Part shown: one piece after another, positions 989 through 25,824 of the stretch | Layout of the letters: the number at the start of each line of letters is the position of its first letter | Position numbering within the stretch: the first letter of the stretch is position 1 | Assembly (NCBI GenBank): GCA_015231465.1 | Contig: JADGBO010000006.1 | Coordinates: forward strand, 1 to 32,026 | Source: Desulfamplus sp. | GTDB taxonomy: Bacteria > Desulfobacterota > Desulfobacteria > Desulfobacterales > Desulfobacteraceae | Direction of reading: 5' to 3' | DNA length: 32,026 bases | Notes under the pieces: generated by a model | Database searches by the model: none | Told to the model about the DNA's origin: nothing | The model's input: the letters and a program-made list of their open reading frames with translations, nothing else | Translations under genes and position numbers: made by a program

Positions 989-3900
989 ATGCTTAGATCA
1001 ATAATGGTTATCTTTTTTTGTATAGTGATTGCAGACAGTTCCCGGGCAGCCCAGGGTCTTGACTCCCAAGCGGAGCTTAACCCTGAAAATGCCCTTTGGG
1101 AGGTGTTTACTTATACCGGAGAAGTCACAGACATCATCTATTCCGATGACGGAACTGTTCTATGGGCAGCCACTGTAGGCGGTCTGGAAGAGCGGGATTC
1201 CAGAACCGGTGAAAGACTGCGGCTATATACAAATCTGGACGGTCTGCCTCACAATTTTACCACTTCTCTGATCACCGACGGTGAAGGCAACTTGTGGGTT
1301 GGAACCTGGGGAGGCGGTATTGCCTGCAGGTCTTCCAGGGGTGAGTGGAAAACTTATACTGCCCAGGGGGACGGTCTGCCGGACAATCGGGTTAAGTCCC
1401 TTTCCCGGGATGGTGACGGCGGAATCTGGATTGGTACCCGGGAAGGCGGCCTTGTTCATCGTTCACGGGATGGCCAATGGAGAGTGTATGACAAAGACAA
1501 CTCGGAGTTGCCGGATAATGATGTCCACACCCTTTTTTATGACGATGCCGGAAGCTTGTGGGTCGGCACCAGGGGCGGAGGAGTTGCCCACAGGAGCGTT
1601 GGCGGAATTTGGACCGTTTACGATGAATATAATTCGGATTTGCCCCATAATAGTGTATCAAGCCTTGCCTCGGACCCTTTGGGGGGCATCTGGATAGGTA
1701 CCCGGGAGGGCGGCCTTGCCCATCGCTCATCAGATGGCCAATGGAGAGTGTATGACAAAGACAACTCGGATTTGCCGGATAATGATGTCCGCACCCTTTT
1801 TTATGACGATGCCGGAAGCTTATGGGTCGGCACCTGGGGCGGGGGGCTTGCCCGCTTTTCGGACAGTGCTGAATGGAAGGTTTACACCATGTATAATTCC
1901 AGGTTGCCTGATAATTTTATTTTATCTCTTTTTCCCGACCATGAAGGGGGCATGTGGATCGGAACTAACGGGTATCTTATCCGGTTGGATGCCCGGGATG
2001 ACTGGACCGTTTATGACAGGGAGAGTTCAGGTTTACCGGATAATCGGGTTTGGAGCCTCTCCCCGGATACCTTCGGGGGTATCTGGATGGGAACCTCGGA
2101 TGCCGGATTGGCCCATCTCTCCTTTTCGGGTAACTGGAAGAGATACAATAAGAGTAACTCCCCTTTGCCCCACAATGAGGTTATGGCAATTTCCTTAGAC
2201 AAAGCCGGGGCTGTTTGGATTGGAACTTCCGGCGGGCTGGCCCATATCTCATCCATAGGTAACTGGAAAGTTCATGATAAGGATAATTCCAGTTTGCCCC
2301 ATAATGAGATTAAGTGTCTCCTGGGGGGGGATGACGGCGGACTTTGGATGGGAACCTGGGGCGGCGGACTTGCTCACCTCTCGGCCATGGGTGAATGGAC
2401 CATCTATAACCAGCAGAACTCCCATTTTTCTTCCCTTTATATATCTACACTGGCCCGGGACGACTCCGGAGGGGTTTGGGTGGGAACCTGGGGTGACGGT
2501 CTGGCTCATATTTCCACCACCGGGGGCTTGACGGAATATACGAAGGAGAATTCCGGACTGCCTGACAATAAGGTCTCCCAGCTTATCCCTGACGGCTTAG
2601 GAGGCATTTGGATCGGAACCTGGGGAGGCGGACTTGCTCATATTTCGGCCAGCTCCGGCCTGGGAGATTCCCCAGCTTATGGACCCAGGGATTCAGCAGG
2701 TTCCGGAATGGTCTTTTCCGGCATTTTTAAAAAGAGTGTTTCCGCCGATTATAAATGGAATGTTTATACAAAAGAGAACTCAGGATTGGCTGATAACCAT
2801 ATACAGAGCCTCTCGCTGGACGGTTCAGGCGGATTGTGGGTGGGTACGGCTGCTTTAGATCTTGCTACTTTGGATATTATTGGCAGGGGACTTGCCCATT
2901 TTTCAGGCCATGGCCACTGGACGAGTTATGATGTTTACAATTCAGGATTGCCGGCAAATCGTGTACTCAGCATCTCTTTGGAAGATAAGGGCGGCCTTTG
3001 GATAGGAACTGAATTTGGCGGAATAACCCGCCTAACCTTTGGATACAAACAGGAGATTCCAGATCTCCCCGAAGCCCATCGTGCAGCAATAATAGTACTG
3101 CCCAAGGGTACGGACCGCAACGACATGTTTGCCCTGGAAACCATGTCTATTCATGCCTACAACACATTTTTGAAGAGAGGCTTTGACAATGATGAGATAT
3201 ATTACCTGGCCTACAAGCCTGACATTGATATAAATGCCGATGGTATAGCCGATATCAATGTGGTCAATGCTCCTGTCACCCTTTCGGAGTACCGCCAGGG
3301 TGGGAAACCCCGGCCGGAACTTACCTTGGATGATGTGGCCCGGGCCTTTGGGTGGGCAGAAAAAAAGGGCAGCCTGAATCATCCGCTCTACTTTGTTTTT
3401 ACAGGCCATGGTCTGCCCGGCCGCCTCAGGCTGGACAATATGAACAGTATGCTCGATGTATCCCAATTCAATGATATTTTGACAAAATACCAGCAGGCCA
3501 CAGGAAACCAGGTGGTGCTGATTCTGGAGGCTTGCCACTCCGGAACCCTGATTGAAGGATTGTCTGGCAAAAATCGGGTTATCATCACCAGTACCAGCGA
3601 AAACCAGGCTTTTTATACAGATAACGGAATTGGTTCCTTCAGCCGGCTCTTTCTTTCGGAACTCTCGGTGAACAACTCGTTTTATGATGCCTTTGAGTTC
3701 GTTTCCAATGAATTTCAGTCCATGTCCAGCCCCTTTAACAAGCAGATTCCTCTCATAGATGACGACGGGGACAGTATTCCAAACCATCTGGACGGCAGTA
3801 TGGCCTCCCAACTGCATCTCAACGGTAATTTCAGTGCCCTTGACGGAACTGTAGCATTGGAACCGATAACGGAATCACGAATTGTCAATGCAGGTGAGAC

Positions 3901-4525
3901 CCTTAACCTTGAGCTGCAGGTGGGCTATACCGAATCCCCCCTGGATGTCTGGGCAATGATTTTGACGCCGGAATATGTGCAGCAGCGTTCCGCAACTGGA
4001 TTTTTTCTCCATCCGGCACCCCGGGTCAATCTCTCATCGGATGACGGCATGACCTATCGGGGAACCTTCACCGGCCTTAATTACAAGGGAGAGTATGTGG
4101 TGACCTTTAATGCCAAGGATCATAAAGGGTGGATCAGCAGCTCCCGTTCCCTGACATTTAGCCTTAAAAACGGCCCTGTCCCTCCTGCTGTGCCCATACC
4201 ATCCCAGCCCGTTTATCATGACGGGGACCCCTTGCAGATAACCATTCCCCATGCTCCCGAGGGAGCAGATCAGTATGTATGCGTGACAGTACCTGGTATG
4301 GACTCCATTTTTATGCTTGTCTCGGAAAATGTTCCGGTATCTTTTGAGGGCACTCTAAGACCCTTTGTGAGCAGCCGGGAACTGGCCCTTGATCTTCCCG
4401 ATGTAACCGGACTGCCCGGGGGAGTCTGGAGAGTCTTTCTCCTGAGGGTTCCGGCCGGTTCGGACCCCTGGGCCATTGATCCATCGGAATGGATACTTGG
4501 CCAGGCAGATTTTGAGGTGAACTGA
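989..4525 (+). CDS. Secreted two-component-regulator-type beta-propeller protein (about 14 blades) with C13/caspase-like peptidase domain and C-terminal Ig-like region
   Basis: RBS gaggagg before ATG. Repeats of the type WxVYDxxNSxLPDNxVxSLxxDxxGGxWIGTxxGGLAHxS. Downstream YFVFTGHG and LILEACHSG (His/Cys dyad) and a DDDGDSIPNHLDG Ca-binding-like motif. Confidence 0.9.
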   Translation: MLRSIMVIFFCIVIADSSRAAQGLDSQAELNPENALWEVFTYTGEVTDIIYSDDGTVLWAATVGGLEERDSRTGERLRLYTNLDGLPHNFTTSLITDGEGNLWVGTWGGGIACRSSRGEWKTYTAQGDGLPDNRVKSLSRDGDGGIWIGTREGGLVHRSRDGQWRVYDKDNSELPDNDVHTLFYDDAGSLWVGTRGGGVAHRSVGGIWTVYDEYNSDLPHNSVSSLASDPLGGIWIGTREGGLAHRSSDGQWRVYDKDNSDLPDNDVRTLFYDDAGSLWVGTWGGGLARFSDSAEWKVYTMYNSRLPDNFILSLFPDHEGGMWIGTNGYLIRLDARDDWTVYDRESSGLPDNRVWSLSPDTFGGIWMGTSDAGLAHLSFSGNWKRYNKSNSPLPHNEVMAISLDKAGAVWIGTSGGLAHISSIGNWKVHDKDNSSLPHNEIKCLLGGDDGGLWMGTWGGGLAHLSAMGEWTIYNQQNSHFSSLYISTLARDDSGGVWVGTWGDGLAHISTTGGLTEYTKENSGLPDNKVSQLIPDGLGGIWIGTWGGGLAHISASSGLGDSPAYGPRDSAGSGMVFSGIFKKSVSADYKWNVYTKENSGLADNHIQSLSLDGSGGLWVGTAALDLATLDIIGRGLAHFSGHGHWTSYDVYNSGLPANRVLSISLEDKGGLWIGTEFGGITRLTFGYKQEIPDLPEAHRAAIIVLPKGTDRNDMFALETMSIHAYNTFLKRGFDNDEIYYLAYKPDIDINADGIADINVVNAPVTLSEYRQGGKPRPELTLDDVARAFGWAEKKGSLNHPLYFVFTGHGLPGRLRLDNMNSMLDVSQFNDILTKYQQATGNQVVLILEACHSGTLIEGLSGKNRVIITSTSENQAFYTDNGIGSFSRLFLSELSVNNSFYDAFEFVSNEFQSMSSPFNKQIPLIDDDGDSIPNHLDGSMASQLHLNGNFSALDGTVALEPITESRIVNAGETLNLELQVGYTESPLDVWAMILTPEYVQQRSATGFFLHPAPRVNLSSDDGMTYRGTFTGLNYKGEYVVTFNAKDHKGWISSSRSLTFSLKNGPVPPAVPIPSQPVYHDGDPLQITIPHAPEGADQYVCVTVPGMDSIFMLVSENVPVSFEGTLRPFVSSRELALDLPDVTGLPGGVWRVFLLRVPAGSDPWAIDPSEWILGQADFEVN
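1430..1840 (+). repeat. Near-identical duplicated two-blade unit (264-bp offset) inside the propeller gene
   Basis: gatggccaatggagagtgtatgacaaagacaactcgga..ttgccggataatgatgtcc at about 1469 recurs at about 1733. 264 = 2 x 132 bp. Confidence 0.8.
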
Positions 4526-4579
4526 CAGATAACTTTTACCGTGAAAATAGATACAAATTTAGATATTTTTTTCATCTTT

Positions 4580-4611
4580 GGGGCTGGCTGAATGGCAGCC
4601 ATGCCCCTTTA
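4580..4611 (+). terminator. Possible intrinsic terminator hairpin downstream of the propeller-peptidase gene
   Basis: GGGGCTGGCTG-aatgg-CAGCCATGCCCC followed by ttta; short T-run only. Confidence 0.45.
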
Positions 4612-4635
4612 TAGTTGAAATCCGGGAGGTTTCTT

Positions 4636-4811
4636 ATGACAACAAAATTTTATGTTGCTTTAGAATAGCGGAGGTTTTTATGAAAACAAAATCTTATGTT
4701 GCTTTAGAATAGCGGAGGTTTTTATGACAACAAAATTTTATGTTGCTTTAGAATAGCGGAGGTTTTTATGAAAACAAAATCTTATGTTGCTTTAGAATAG
4801 CGGAGGTTTTT
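4636..4811 (+). repeat. 4 x 44-bp tandem array; each unit is a start codon, 9 further codons, TAG and a Shine-Dalgarno, duplicating the initiation region of the following gene
   Basis: ATG at 4636, 4680, 4724, 4768, then the true gene ATG at 4812. Mini-ORFs MTTKFYVALE*, MKTKSYVALE*, MTTKFYVALE*, MKTKSYVALE*; each followed by cGGAGGtttttATG. Confidence 0.95.
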
Positions 4812-5288
4812 ATGAAAAGAAAATTTTATGTTGCTTTAGTGGTGTTTGTTATCCTTTTGTTTGGTTCGGATGGTGCTTTTGCCCAAGGTAAAGCCAGGCT
4901 TGCCGTTCCCCATCTCTCCCTAGGTGCAGGTCAGGAACTCGGTGCCGTTGTGATTCTTTCGGGGACGGGAAATTATGACCTCTATGCCGCCGTCACCGGG
5001 GGCGTTCTCGGAGATGAACTATATCTCTTCAGGGGTACCCTTGATCTTGTGCCGCTCTCTTCGTCTGTTTCCGATACCGCTTCTTTGGGCATTCCAAAAC
5101 TCATGGAGAACCTAAACTTTGAATCCCTCTCGGTTGCGGATCGAATAGTGACATTGATTCCCAAGCTGACTATTACTGATGGATCACTGGCCGGAATATA
5201 TACCTTTTTTGTGGCACTGACCTCTCCGGGCCGGGATGACTTTCAGCATGACACCCTGACAGTTGAAATTAAATGGGAGGGAATATGA
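4812..5288 (+). CDS. Small secreted protein (158 aa) with signal peptide
   Basis: MKRKFYVALVVFVILLFGSDGAFAQ signal peptide. RBS cGGAGG 5 nt upstream. Stop overlaps the next ATG (ATGA). Confidence 0.85.
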   Translation: MKRKFYVALVVFVILLFGSDGAFAQGKARLAVPHLSLGAGQELGAVVILSGTGNYDLYAAVTGGVLGDELYLFRGTLDLVPLSSSVSDTASLGIPKLMENLNFESLSVADRIVTLIPKLTITDGSLAGIYTFFVALTSPGRDDFQHDTLTVEIKWEGI

Positions 5289-7684
5289 AAAAATATAGCA
5301 TAGCTCTATATATTGCACTAATAACGGCTTTTGTGATGATCCCCGGTTCCTGGGCATGGGCAGTTGAGCCGGTGGATTCCCCTTCCGGGCCGCGGACTGC
5401 CGCCGAAGCTTATCTTGATGACTTGACCATAACCCCTGGGCAGGTCTCTGTCTCCCCTGGGAAAACCATATCCTTTAGCGTAACAAATGCGGCTTCAGAT
5501 TCTGATACCGGAGATGCGGTTCTCCTGTGGACCGCTTCCATGGGAGATGTCTCCAGTGAAGGTCTCTACACGGCACCGGACACCATCGGCAGCCATACTG
5601 TATCTGTTACGGATCTGCTCAACGGCAGGACAGCCGATGCTTCTGTACATGTAAGACAAGAACTTGTCATCACTCCGGACACCGCCGCAGTCACTGCCGG
5701 CGGAAGCAGGGCCTTCACTGTTTCAGGGGGTGAGCCCCCCTACACATGGAATGTTTCAGAAGGGGGTTCCATGGATGACCCATCCGGGGATACTGTGACC
5801 TTTACAGCAGGCACAAGAACCGGCACCAGCAGGATATTGGTTATTGATAAAAACGGTATCAAGGCCGAAGCCGAAGTTGAAATAACCGGAGCCATTATCG
5901 TAAGCCCTGCAAGCATAACCCTTATGCCCCTGGGAGAGACAACCTTTTCAGCCCCTGGTGTTTCAGGGGTAACATGGGAAGCTGATAAGGGAATAATTGA
6001 CCAGAAGGGCAACTATACTGCCCCTGCCCAGTTGGGAAGAGACACGGTGACCGCAAGGGACAGCCTGGGAAACGAGTCCGCAGCAACGGTAATTGTTGCC
6101 GATATTCCCGTGATAACACCTGCCATGGCATGGATAGAAAAGGGTGATTCCGTATCCTTTGATCTCCTTGGAGGTACTCCGCCTTACACATGGTACACAG
6201 ATGCAGGAAACATTGAGGGTTCAACAGATTCGGCTGTTTATACATCACCTGACCTTTCCGGAGAGTTCACAATAAAAGTGAGGGACTCCCTGGCTCAGGA
6301 GGCATCTGCCGTCATCTACGTTGATCTTGAACTCAGGGCCACCCGGGAGGAGATATTTGTAAAGCCCGGGGAGATGGCAAAGATTGCCGTGACCGGAGGT
6401 GTTCCCCCATTTGACTGGCAGACCGTTACAGGTGATTTGGAGGAGGCCGTGACCGAGAATGCGGGATTCAACATCTATACCGCCCCGGGTATCATGGGCC
6501 AGGATACCGTCACCATCCGGGACAGAAAAAACAATACGGTCTCTGTAACAGTTCATGTAACCACTCCATTGCAGGTGACCCCCAATGTCCGTTACCTCAC
6601 CAGGGGTGATTCAGCAAGATTCACCGTGGTCAGCGGTGTTCCCCCCTATGTTGCGGCCATAATTGACGGAGACGGTGAGATATTTCCCGAAAGTGGCGGC
6701 AGCGATTTCACCGGCATGGAGGGAGTGTTCACATTCACAGCCGGTAAAACCGCCGATGATGACGTTGTAATCGAGTTTACAGACAACACCGGACAGACCG
6801 TCACTGCCCATGCATTTGTGGAAGCTACGCTCAGGGTATCTCGGGCCACCATCTATGTTGACATAAACAGTGAGGTCTCTTTCAGGGTCACAGGGGGAAC
6901 CGGAGGATATGTTGCCATAGCAGGTGCAGGGGATGCTCACGTGGATTCAGAAACCGGAAGGGGTACCTATAAATCAATCGGGCGTTACGACAACGATACC
7001 ATAACAATATTTGACTCCATGGAGCAGTCCCTTGACATCCTCGTTGTGGTGGCTAAACCCACACCTGTTATATCACCCTCAATTGCCCACATGGAAGCCG
7101 GTCAATCCCGGGCCTTCATGGTTACCATGGGTTCACCTCCCTACGACTGGGCCATTGAAGCGGGCCGGTTCATATCCATAGACGAGAATAATTCCGTGGT
7201 TGAGATCACGGCACCGGAAGTTTCCGGGACATATACCCTCACCGTAAGCGATGCCGGGGGCAATCAGGCAACGGCAAATTTTTCCGTAACCCTGCCCCTG
7301 GCCATATCTCCCTCGTCCATGACTGTTTATCAGGGTACCTCCCCGTCCCTGAGAGTGTTGGGAGTCGGGGGCATCCCTCCCTATCAGTGGATCAGTTCCG
7401 AGGTGACCGTTGAAGAGCATGACACCTTTGCCGTTATAAAACCTGAAACCAGGGTTAATGCGGGGAAGGTTTACTCCCTTGAATGCCGTGACTCTGCCGG
7501 AAAAACCGTCTCCATGAACGTGATCGTAAGCCGCATTCCAGGAGACCTCAACGGTGACGGTATCCTTGATGATGATGAGATGATCAATGTTATAGAGGCT
7601 TACACCGACGATACTCCTGTACAGGGGATAAAAATTGATCCCGTGACAATGTACAGCCATGCTGAATCCTTTATCGACAATTGA
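5285..7684 (+). CDS. Secreted Ig-like multi-repeat protein with C-terminal dockerin/EF-hand-like motif
   Basis: ORF given as 5273; ATG at 5285 (MKKYSIALYIALITAF) has RBS gggagg. Repeated GGxPPYxW..YTAP...VTVxDSxG units. C-term GDLNGDGILDDDEMINVIEAY. Confidence 0.85.
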   Translation: MKKYSIALYIALITAFVMIPGSWAWAVEPVDSPSGPRTAAEAYLDDLTITPGQVSVSPGKTISFSVTNAASDSDTGDAVLLWTASMGDVSSEGLYTAPDTIGSHTVSVTDLLNGRTADASVHVRQELVITPDTAAVTAGGSRAFTVSGGEPPYTWNVSEGGSMDDPSGDTVTFTAGTRTGTSRILVIDKNGIKAEAEVEITGAIIVSPASITLMPLGETTFSAPGVSGVTWEADKGIIDQKGNYTAPAQLGRDTVTARDSLGNESAATVIVADIPVITPAMAWIEKGDSVSFDLLGGTPPYTWYTDAGNIEGSTDSAVYTSPDLSGEFTIKVRDSLAQEASAVIYVDLELRATREEIFVKPGEMAKIAVTGGVPPFDWQTVTGDLEEAVTENAGFNIYTAPGIMGQDTVTIRDRKNNTVSVTVHVTTPLQVTPNVRYLTRGDSARFTVVSGVPPYVAAIIDGDGEIFPESGGSDFTGMEGVFTFTAGKTADDDVVIEFTDNTGQTVTAHAFVEATLRVSRATIYVDINSEVSFRVTGGTGGYVAIAGAGDAHVDSETGRGTYKSIGRYDNDTITIFDSMEQSLDILVVVAKPTPVISPSIAHMEAGQSRAFMVTMGSPPYDWAIEAGRFISIDENNSVVEITAPEVSGTYTLTVSDAGGNQATANFSVTLPLAISPSSMTVYQGTSPSLRVLGVGGIPPYQWISSEVTVEEHDTFAVIKPETRVNAGKVYSLECRDSAGKTVSMNVIVSRIPGDLNGDGILDDDEMINVIEAYTDDTPVQGIKIDPVTMYSHAESFIDN

Positions 7685-9264: not shown

Positions 9265-9393
9265 AAAAAGCTTGTTTACCTCATTTATATGTTAATAATG
9301 ATCAAAGCCGGAGCCTCCGGCTCTACTTTACCGTGGAAACGGATACAAATTTTCATCTTCGGTGGTGAGTGAGAGCCTGTTTAAAAATCAGGC

Positions 9394-19557: not shown

Positions 19558-20580
19558 TTATGTAATCTTTTTATTATTATAGAGTTTTTCGATTTCTCTA
19601 ATAAACAAGTCCATTTGTACCGATTCATTTGTATATGAGTTAATTGATTCGATAGATTTTTGGGCTATTTCGACGGACTTATACTCTTTATCTATCCCAA
19701 TGTATTGCCTGCCTTCACTAATAGCAGCAATTGCCGTAGTTCCGCTTCCGATAAAACAGTCAAGAACTATTTCCTCTGGATCAGTCAACAATTTTATCAC
19801 CCTTCTCGGTAATTCGACTGGAAATTTTGAGTCATGATCAGCATTGCTTCGGACAGATGGAATATCCCATACACCCCTTGACCCCCAATTAACCCATTCT
19901 TGTTTAGTAAGTCGTGAACGATCTACTTTAGTTATACCTGGCTTCCAAAAAAAATAGATGTATTCAGATTCATCAACAGAACGATATGATATTGTATGCC
20001 ATTTAGAGCTTTCCCATGCAGCATCCTTCACCCAAATTCTACGGTCATATAAATAGAATCCAGCCTCTAATGCAGCTTCTTCTATAAAACCACCGACTAA
20101 AAAAATTCTTGTTTGAGTCTGATATTTACCCCCCCTGATATTATTGCCGTTAAGCCTTCTATCAATTGTTTGTTCGCTACATTTAAAATGTTCGGCTAAT
20201 TTATATCTGTTCCAATCCGGATGTTTTTCTTTGAGATTTAATATTTCTCCCTTTGATAATTTTATTTTTTTTAGGGATATATTTTCAGCCATTATTTTTG
20301 GCATTGATTCATCTTTAAAGCACAAAATATCAGCAATATTTATTACTATAAATCCACCCGGTTTTATAATTGAAAAATGCAATTTAATAACATCTCGAAG
20401 TAATTTTTTCCATGCTTCAAAAGTCAAATCTTTCTCATAATCCTTTCCAACGTAATAAGGAGGTGACCAAACGCTTATGGCAATAGATTCAGGTTCAATT
20501 TTTTTTAGCAATACCCTTGAATCCCCACAATATATATCATTGGGTTCCAACATTTTTAAAAATTTTTTTATGATTGCCAT
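19558..20580 (-). CDS. Site-specific DNA methyltransferase (type II RM; N4-cytosine/N6-adenine class) with embedded HTH-like segment
   Basis: SVWSPPYYVGKDY (SPPY catalytic motif), VLDCFIGSGTTAIAAISEGRQYIGID (FxGxG SAM motif); HTH-like YKLAEHFKCSEQTIDRRL. Confidence 0.92.
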   Translation of the reverse strand: MAIIKKFLKMLEPNDIYCGDSRVLLKKIEPESIAISVWSPPYYVGKDYEKDLTFEAWKKLLRDVIKLHFSIIKPGGFIVINIADILCFKDESMPKIMAENISLKKIKLSKGEILNLKEKHPDWNRYKLAEHFKCSEQTIDRRLNGNNIRGGKYQTQTRIFLVGGFIEEAALEAGFYLYDRRIWVKDAAWESSKWHTISYRSVDESEYIYFFWKPGITKVDRSRLTKQEWVNWGSRGVWDIPSVRSNADHDSKFPVELPRRVIKLLTDPEEIVLDCFIGSGTTAIAAISEGRQYIGIDKEYKSVEIAQKSIESINSYTNESVQMDLFIREIEKLYNNKKIT

Positions 20581-21287
20581 AATCCAATACACTCCATAGT
20601 AGATTCATCATAAGTTATCGTCTGCACACGCCATGCTGCTTTTGATTTCAATCGGATAAAACTAACTCGCACCCTGAAATCTTGGCCTAATGTGGGTGCG
20701 TTTCTACCGGCAAACCAAATTCCGTCTTCAACTGTTGGATTATATCTATCTTGAAGTCGCCCGTTAGGTATTACTGCTATTGTAACTTCACGCAGGTGAT
20801 GCACACCATCTGAGTCATCATTATACATAAAGTGAACAAGACAAGTAGTCGTTAAATAATTTTTTTCACCATATTCAGATATTTCTGGTAAAAAACCCTT
20901 TTCGATAATATTATTGCCTGATCTTTGTTGTTTTATCCACATTGAAGTTTGAGACATTTGAATTGTGGCTGATCTGTTTTCTTTTTCAGCCTTTGAATCT
21001 ATGAACAAAGCTTGTCTGACTGTTTGTTCCGGAAGAATAACATATCTCGCCTTTTTATAATCCACATTTCCGTAAATTCGCTGTTGAACATTAAATCCAG
21101 AAAGCCTGTCAAGTAATTCTCTTGTAATATCTTCGGCAATATCTTTAACACTATCGGGTGATTTCAGAAATATTTCATGTGATTCCATTCCAAAATCTAT
21201 TACCGCTTGAAATACCCAACGTAAAGTGAGTTTTTCAATTTCTTCAATTTCATCCAATGAAAGATCAACAGGATTTTTTTCTGTCAT
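20568..21287 (-). CDS. Probable SfiI-like type II restriction endonuclease
   Basis: Adjacent to and overlapping the MTase start. ARYVILPEQTVRQALFIDSKAEKENRSATIQMSQTSM resembles SfiI-family proteins from memory; D...D.K-type motif. Confidence 0.7.
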   Translation of the reverse strand: MTEKNPVDLSLDEIEEIEKLTLRWVFQAVIDFGMESHEIFLKSPDSVKDIAEDITRELLDRLSGFNVQQRIYGNVDYKKARYVILPEQTVRQALFIDSKAEKENRSATIQMSQTSMWIKQQRSGNNIIEKGFLPEISEYGEKNYLTTTCLVHFMYNDDSDGVHHLREVTIAVIPNGRLQDRYNPTVEDGIWFAGRNAPTLGQDFRVRVSFIRLKSKAAWRVQTITYDESTMECIGLWQS

Positions 21288-25685: not shown

Positions 25686-25782
25686 GTAAACCTTCATAGT
25701 TGGAGGCTGGCCAACCAGAACCGAGTATGTTTCTAACGTCCTCGGCCTCAAGTAAACCTTCATAGTTGGAGGCCAGCCAACC
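25686..25782. repeat. Two direct copies of GTAAACCTTCATAGTTGGAGGCYRGCCAACC
   Basis: 25686-25716 and 25752-25782; each contains GTTGG...CCAAC stem-loop. Confidence 0.8.
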
Positions 25783-25824
25783 CCGATCATGGAAATAATG
25801 TATCCATTTCCATGGTAAAGTGCA

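Follow-up and report, generated by a model that had tools for sequence, protein, structure and literature searches.

Tandem copies of a gene's initiation region in a repeat-rich Desulfamplus genome, a probable by-product of tandem duplication

Among the closest described systems are those in which a short open reading frame precedes a gene and is coupled to it. The iraD gene of Escherichia coli is coupled to a short upstream open reading frame (uORF) located just before it (PMC5574718), and in the engineered bicistronic design a short first cistron is combined with a Shine-Dalgarno (SD) sequence for the gene, the gene being read by reinitiating ribosomes (PMC5995908). In E. coli, an SD sequence raises reinitiation more than threefold, and a gap of 40 nt drops it to background (PMC2268962). 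Our literature search for multiple SD sequences that combine tandem starts with reinitiation gave no result. The locus analysed here carries, upstream of an orphan gene whose start codon is at position 4812 (gene 4812), several near-identical copies of the initiation region of that gene. It lies in a stretch of 32,026 nucleotides, hereafter the window, from a metagenome assembly of the genus Desulfamplus (3.63 Mb, 402 contigs, 72% complete). The window encodes a phosphoglycerate dehydrogenase that shares 86% identity with its counterpart in Desulfamplus magnetovallimortis; its next six matches also belong to Desulfamplus.

The array was delineated by Tandem Repeats Finder (TRF) at positions 4625-4839, with a period of 44, 4.9 copies and 94% matches, and direct reading of the sequence places its ATG codons at 4636, 4680, 4724 and 4768, the ATG of the gene itself following at 4812. 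Each 44-bp unit consists of an SD sequence, an ATG, nine codons and a TAG. At the junctions the TAG is directly followed by CGGAGGTTTTT (C-GGAGG-TTTTT) and the next ATG, so that each stop lies 11 nt before the next start with the SD in between, as the earlier note on this DNA had observed. Unit 1 (4625-4668, plus strand, as are all the units) is made of GGAGGTTTCTT and the mini-ORF MTTKFYVALE, with its ATG at 4636 and its TAG at 4666-4668; unit 2 (4669-4712) and unit 3 (4713-4756) are made of CGGAGGTTTTT followed by the mini-ORFs MKTKSYVALE (ATG 4680) and MTTKFYVALE (ATG 4724), respectively; unit 4 (4757-4800, ATG 4768) again encodes MKTKSYVALE and is identical to unit 2. A 21-nt probe taken from the unit matches the window at four places when up to three mismatches are allowed, and finds no match in 100 shuffled sequences. 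The description of four SD-start-minipeptide-stop units given in the earlier note is accurate.

The two types of unit strictly alternate in the order A-B-A-B, the ORFs of units 1 and 3 being identical to each other, and they are distinguished by two differences, both of which change an amino acid. The longest exact self-match in the array extends over 94 nt at a shift of 88; combined with the alternating order, it indicates that the latest step was the duplication of 88 bp, that is, of two units at once. Selection on the mini-peptides was considered and rejected: no more than two codons distinguish the units, each by a non-synonymous difference, and the sample is small. The resemblance to the start of gene 4812, from which the units had been said to be copied, holds for the SD and about nine codons and does not extend to the tail of the unit, which reads GAATAG where the gene has GTGGTG. 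The claim that each mini-ORF differs in frame from the next and that none fuses to the gene likewise stands for neighbouring units; unit 2 (ATG 4680), however, shares the frame of gene 4812, 132 nt away, and is separated from it by its TAG alone. Furthermore, 44 equals 2 modulo 3 and all units as well as gene 4812 begin with ATGA; consequently, if its TAG were missing, each mini-ORF would still be closed by the TGA within the following ATGA. Duplications with a period of 2 modulo 3 over an ATGA start thus close themselves, and may for that reason be easily tolerated.

The gene upstream of the array (989-4525, plus strand) encodes a secreted protein of 1178 residues combining a Reg_prop propeller of the two-component-regulator type (Pfam, E 3.9e-65) with a Peptidase_C13 domain (E 1.7e-10). 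Secreted proteins of this Reg_prop/Peptidase_C13 type (989-4525 in the window; loci L041, L043 and L051-L055 elsewhere) form a paralogous family in the genus, some genomes having several of them, and among the loci retrieved for these paralogues no homologue of gene 4812 was found. Between this gene and the array, positions 4530-4612 (plus strand) belong to a dispersed intergenic repeat, identified by nhmmer, alignment and consensus folding; this copy stops about 12 nt short of the SD of unit 1. The repeat, of about 65-80 bp, has the consensus TTTACCGTGGAAATGGATACATTATTTCCATGATCGGGG.TGGC.GGAC.CC..CCATG and two hairpins, the second of which shows changes on both sides in some copies, according to the alignment and the consensus fold. 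Further copies are found in the window at 9326-9375 (plus strand) and 25754-25822 (minus strand); in 734 kb of the same genome nhmmer returned 36 rows at E<=1, some of them weak or overlapping, and the repeat occupies 15 places in this genome and 51 in one congener, some copies being in direct tandem.

Gene 4812 and its SD (4801-4811) occupy positions 4801-5288 of the plus strand. The 158-residue product, whose N-terminus (MKRKFYVALVVFVILLFGSDGAFAQG) reads as a signal peptide, has no Pfam match, and no relative of it was found in a scan of GTDB contigs or in 57 related genomes, which makes it an orphan. The next gene (5285-7684, plus strand; ORF and Pfam search) encodes a secreted repeat-domain protein of 799 residues; its start codon and the stop codon of gene 4812 overlap as ATGA, and its closest homologue, in the congener G002, shows 62% identity over query residues 350-797 and is located at a contig end without upstream sequence. 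Between 4400 and 5000, no sigma-70-like promoter on the plus strand and no intrinsic terminator were called, and the Rfam search gave matches at chance level only. Elsewhere in the window, the translation of the ORF at 19558-20592 (minus strand) contains SPPY, which reads like a DNA amino-methyltransferase motif, and is overlapped by the ORF at 20568-21287 (minus strand).

The 44-bp array belongs to a genome that is rich in such repeats. Our sample of this genome comprised 107 stretches and 1,384 kb (1.38 Mb, 38% of the assembly), in which arrays were counted at a period of at least 9. It contains 555 tandem arrays, or 0.40 per kb, against 0.22, 0.07, 0.03 and 0.03 per kb in four related genomes, for which the samples are small (40-120 kb per genome); the gene calls used are crude. 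The 322 arrays of coding DNA have a period that is a multiple of three in 302 cases, whereas this holds for about one third (81) of the 233 arrays of non-coding DNA, where the density reaches 1.19 per kb. Such a bias within genes is what one would expect from duplications that form without constraint and are then lost from coding sequences where they shift the frame. The window alone contains ten tandem arrays in addition to the one described here. With its head-to-tail copies of high identity, the 44-bp array has the characteristics of a minisatellite or tandem duplication, and is typical of the repeat load of the genome and of a placement by chance.

The duplication of a gene start is not peculiar to gene 4812. 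A search for upstream copies of the SD and start of a gene, in which at least 21 of 27 nt had to be shared and both SD and start codon kept, gave 20 candidates in the sample of this genome; some are in frame and produce N-terminal repeats. In the 38% of the genome sampled, independent start duplications that form separate mini-ORFs, out of frame or closed by a stop, occur at about ten other genes; their sequences are mutually unrelated and encode unrelated peptides. These genes include an NtrC-like regulator (29 bp, mini-ORF MNYMVKDNNP, whose TGA overlaps the next ATG), an AAA-ATPase-like gene (43 bp, MSNTIP), an FtsX-like permease (35 bp in four steps, with three mini-ORFs of 15 codons), a gene for a 208-residue protein (38 bp, two mini-ORFs of 13 codons with ATGA overlaps), and start duplications of 25 bp at guanylate kinase (gmk), 37 bp at a PIG-L/glycosyltransferase gene and 29 bp at a histidine kinase. 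At L188 (minus strand, starts 883/921/959) and L058 (minus strand, starts 9930/9959), the TGA of the mini-ORF overlaps the next ATG (ATGA), a tighter coupling than in the array of gene 4812. At L091 (minus strand, starts 729/771/813), an in-frame triplication of 42 bp, every copy of which has its own SD and ATG, generates an N-terminal repeat in an ABC-type ATPase-like protein.

In our judgement the array is probably a recent, lineage-specific tandem duplication of the initiation region of gene 4812, one of many in this genome, arising as a by-product of chance and without a selected rheostat. Such a rheostat was the first proposal of the earlier note, as a multi-cistron leader for ribosome loading or termination-reinitiation. 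In the form considered here, several SD sequences would load ribosomes, termination-reinitiation would carry them down the leader, and the number of units would set how much protein is made from gene 4812 and from the overlapping gene 5285, a view that we consider improbable. It has the spacing in its favour, since a stop and a start 11 nt apart with GGAGG between them are close enough for reinitiation, which in E. coli is promoted by an SD and abolished at 40 nt (PMC2268962). Passage of ribosomes down the ladder is thus possible, and the mini-ORFs, if transcribed, are probably translated and could plausibly be traversed by termination-reinitiation. The ATGA overlap at the 4812/5285 junction and the similar operation of engineered bicistronic leaders (PMC5995908) agree with this proposal. 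Against a chance duplication speak the intact SD and start of all units and the strength of the array, which, with a TRF score of 386 and 4.9 copies, ranks fourth by score among the non-coding arrays of the first 734-kb sample, although it is matched by arrays of 54 bp x 5.0, 42 bp x 5.0 and 30 bp x 7.2. A regulatory leader should, however, be commoner over starts than chance provides, and this is not what is found: arrays spanning an SD and start with an extra upstream unit number 16, whereas 22.7 +/- 4.8 would be expected if arrays were placed at random in positions that are not entirely coding (16 or fewer in 21 of 300 trials); the first half of the sample gave 11, with 12.5 +/- 3.1 expected. 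Similar ladders with unrelated peptides stand before unrelated genes, and the congener orthologues of three of these genes are without the duplication: gmk in nine genomes, the NtrC-like regulator in nine and the FtsX-like permease in five with a readable start. The lack of enrichment together with the absence in congeners suggests that start ladders are transient, coming and going, and that conserved genes manage without them. A search of related genomes for the unit had also been suggested; as carried out, it found the ladder pattern of the gene 4812 locus in none of 97 relatives. The selected device is therefore left unsupported, and the neutral duplication, which the earlier note had offered as its second option, is favoured by the ten or so other duplicated starts, by the absence of enrichment over chance and by the lack of the duplication at three conserved genes of congeners; it is from the lack of enrichment and from other loci that we infer neutrality.

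RNA folding weighs on the leader in two directions. The SD of gene 4812 has a predicted openness of 0.36 in the absence of units, and this value drops to 0.13-0.18 once one to six units are present. Such a drop speaks against simple enhancement, although translating ribosomes could offset it by holding the RNA open. The same fall in accessibility from SD to ATG once a unit is added would suit a down-regulating or insulating leader, in which the mini-ORFs occupy ribosomes or the repeats fold over the SD, more copies giving less protein, and the RNA of 4526-4900 does fold better than shuffled sequences (z -2.04). Folding of a single strand ignores translation, however, a z near -2 is a modest value of the kind that repeated sequences are expected to give, and conservation gives no backing in the case of an orphan such as gene 4812, so that we regard this effect as quite improbable. 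The array, or its copy number, might also have been made or altered by short-read assembly: the genome is a draft metagenome in 402 contigs, in which an exact repeat of 94 nt at a shift of 88 may be unreliably resolved, leaving the number of copies uncertain. An error of this kind is nonetheless highly improbable as the origin of the array, since the substitutions that tell the units apart follow a consistent order, and since the multiple-of-three rule within genes holds for hundreds of arrays in this genome, as it would not for errors.

The chance duplication that we favour would have proceeded as follows. A very active tandem-duplication process in this Desulfamplus genome would have struck the initiation region of gene 4812, and the array would then have spread by slippage or unequal recombination and been tolerated because the gene keeps its own intact SD and start. 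If an mRNA covers the array, ribosomes could start at each unit and stop after ten codons, and after each stop they would dissociate or else initiate again at the SD that follows, within 11 nt. The mini-peptides would be incidental, and any effect on expression a side effect. Could the start duplications of this Desulfamplus lineage nevertheless constitute a standing translational variation, in which dozens of ladder genes with fast-changing copy number, self-closing through ATGA starts and periods of 2 modulo 3, tune their output by termination-reinitiation? We advance this wider idea as a speculation that is unlikely to hold.

Considered by itself, the array is a tandem duplication of an ordinary kind, situated in a genome rich in repeats, and the wider pattern is the more useful result. 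In a single genome some ten natural genes, guanylate kinase and an NtrC-like regulator among them, carry upstream one to four additional copies of their own initiation site, and this set is well suited to studying whether repeated start regions are put to use by bacteria and how they are tolerated. The pattern also calls for caution, the annotation of start codons being unreliable in such repeat-rich genomes.

Among known systems, the array resembles bacterial minisatellites (VNTRs) by its head-to-tail, near-identical units, its nested 88-bp duplication and the many arrays per genome, and the arrays of this genome resemble them in being in frame within genes and free in intergenic DNA. It resembles the iraD uORF in placing a short ORF just upstream of a gene, and differs from it in consisting of several near-identical copies of the gene's own start. 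In the engineered bicistronic design the second SD lies inside the leader ORF (PMC5995908), whereas in the array, which is natural and repeated, the SD follows the stop. On the other hand, what distinguishes the array from the minisatellites is that its unit happens to hold a complete SD, start and stop, thereby forming a series of mini-cistrons.
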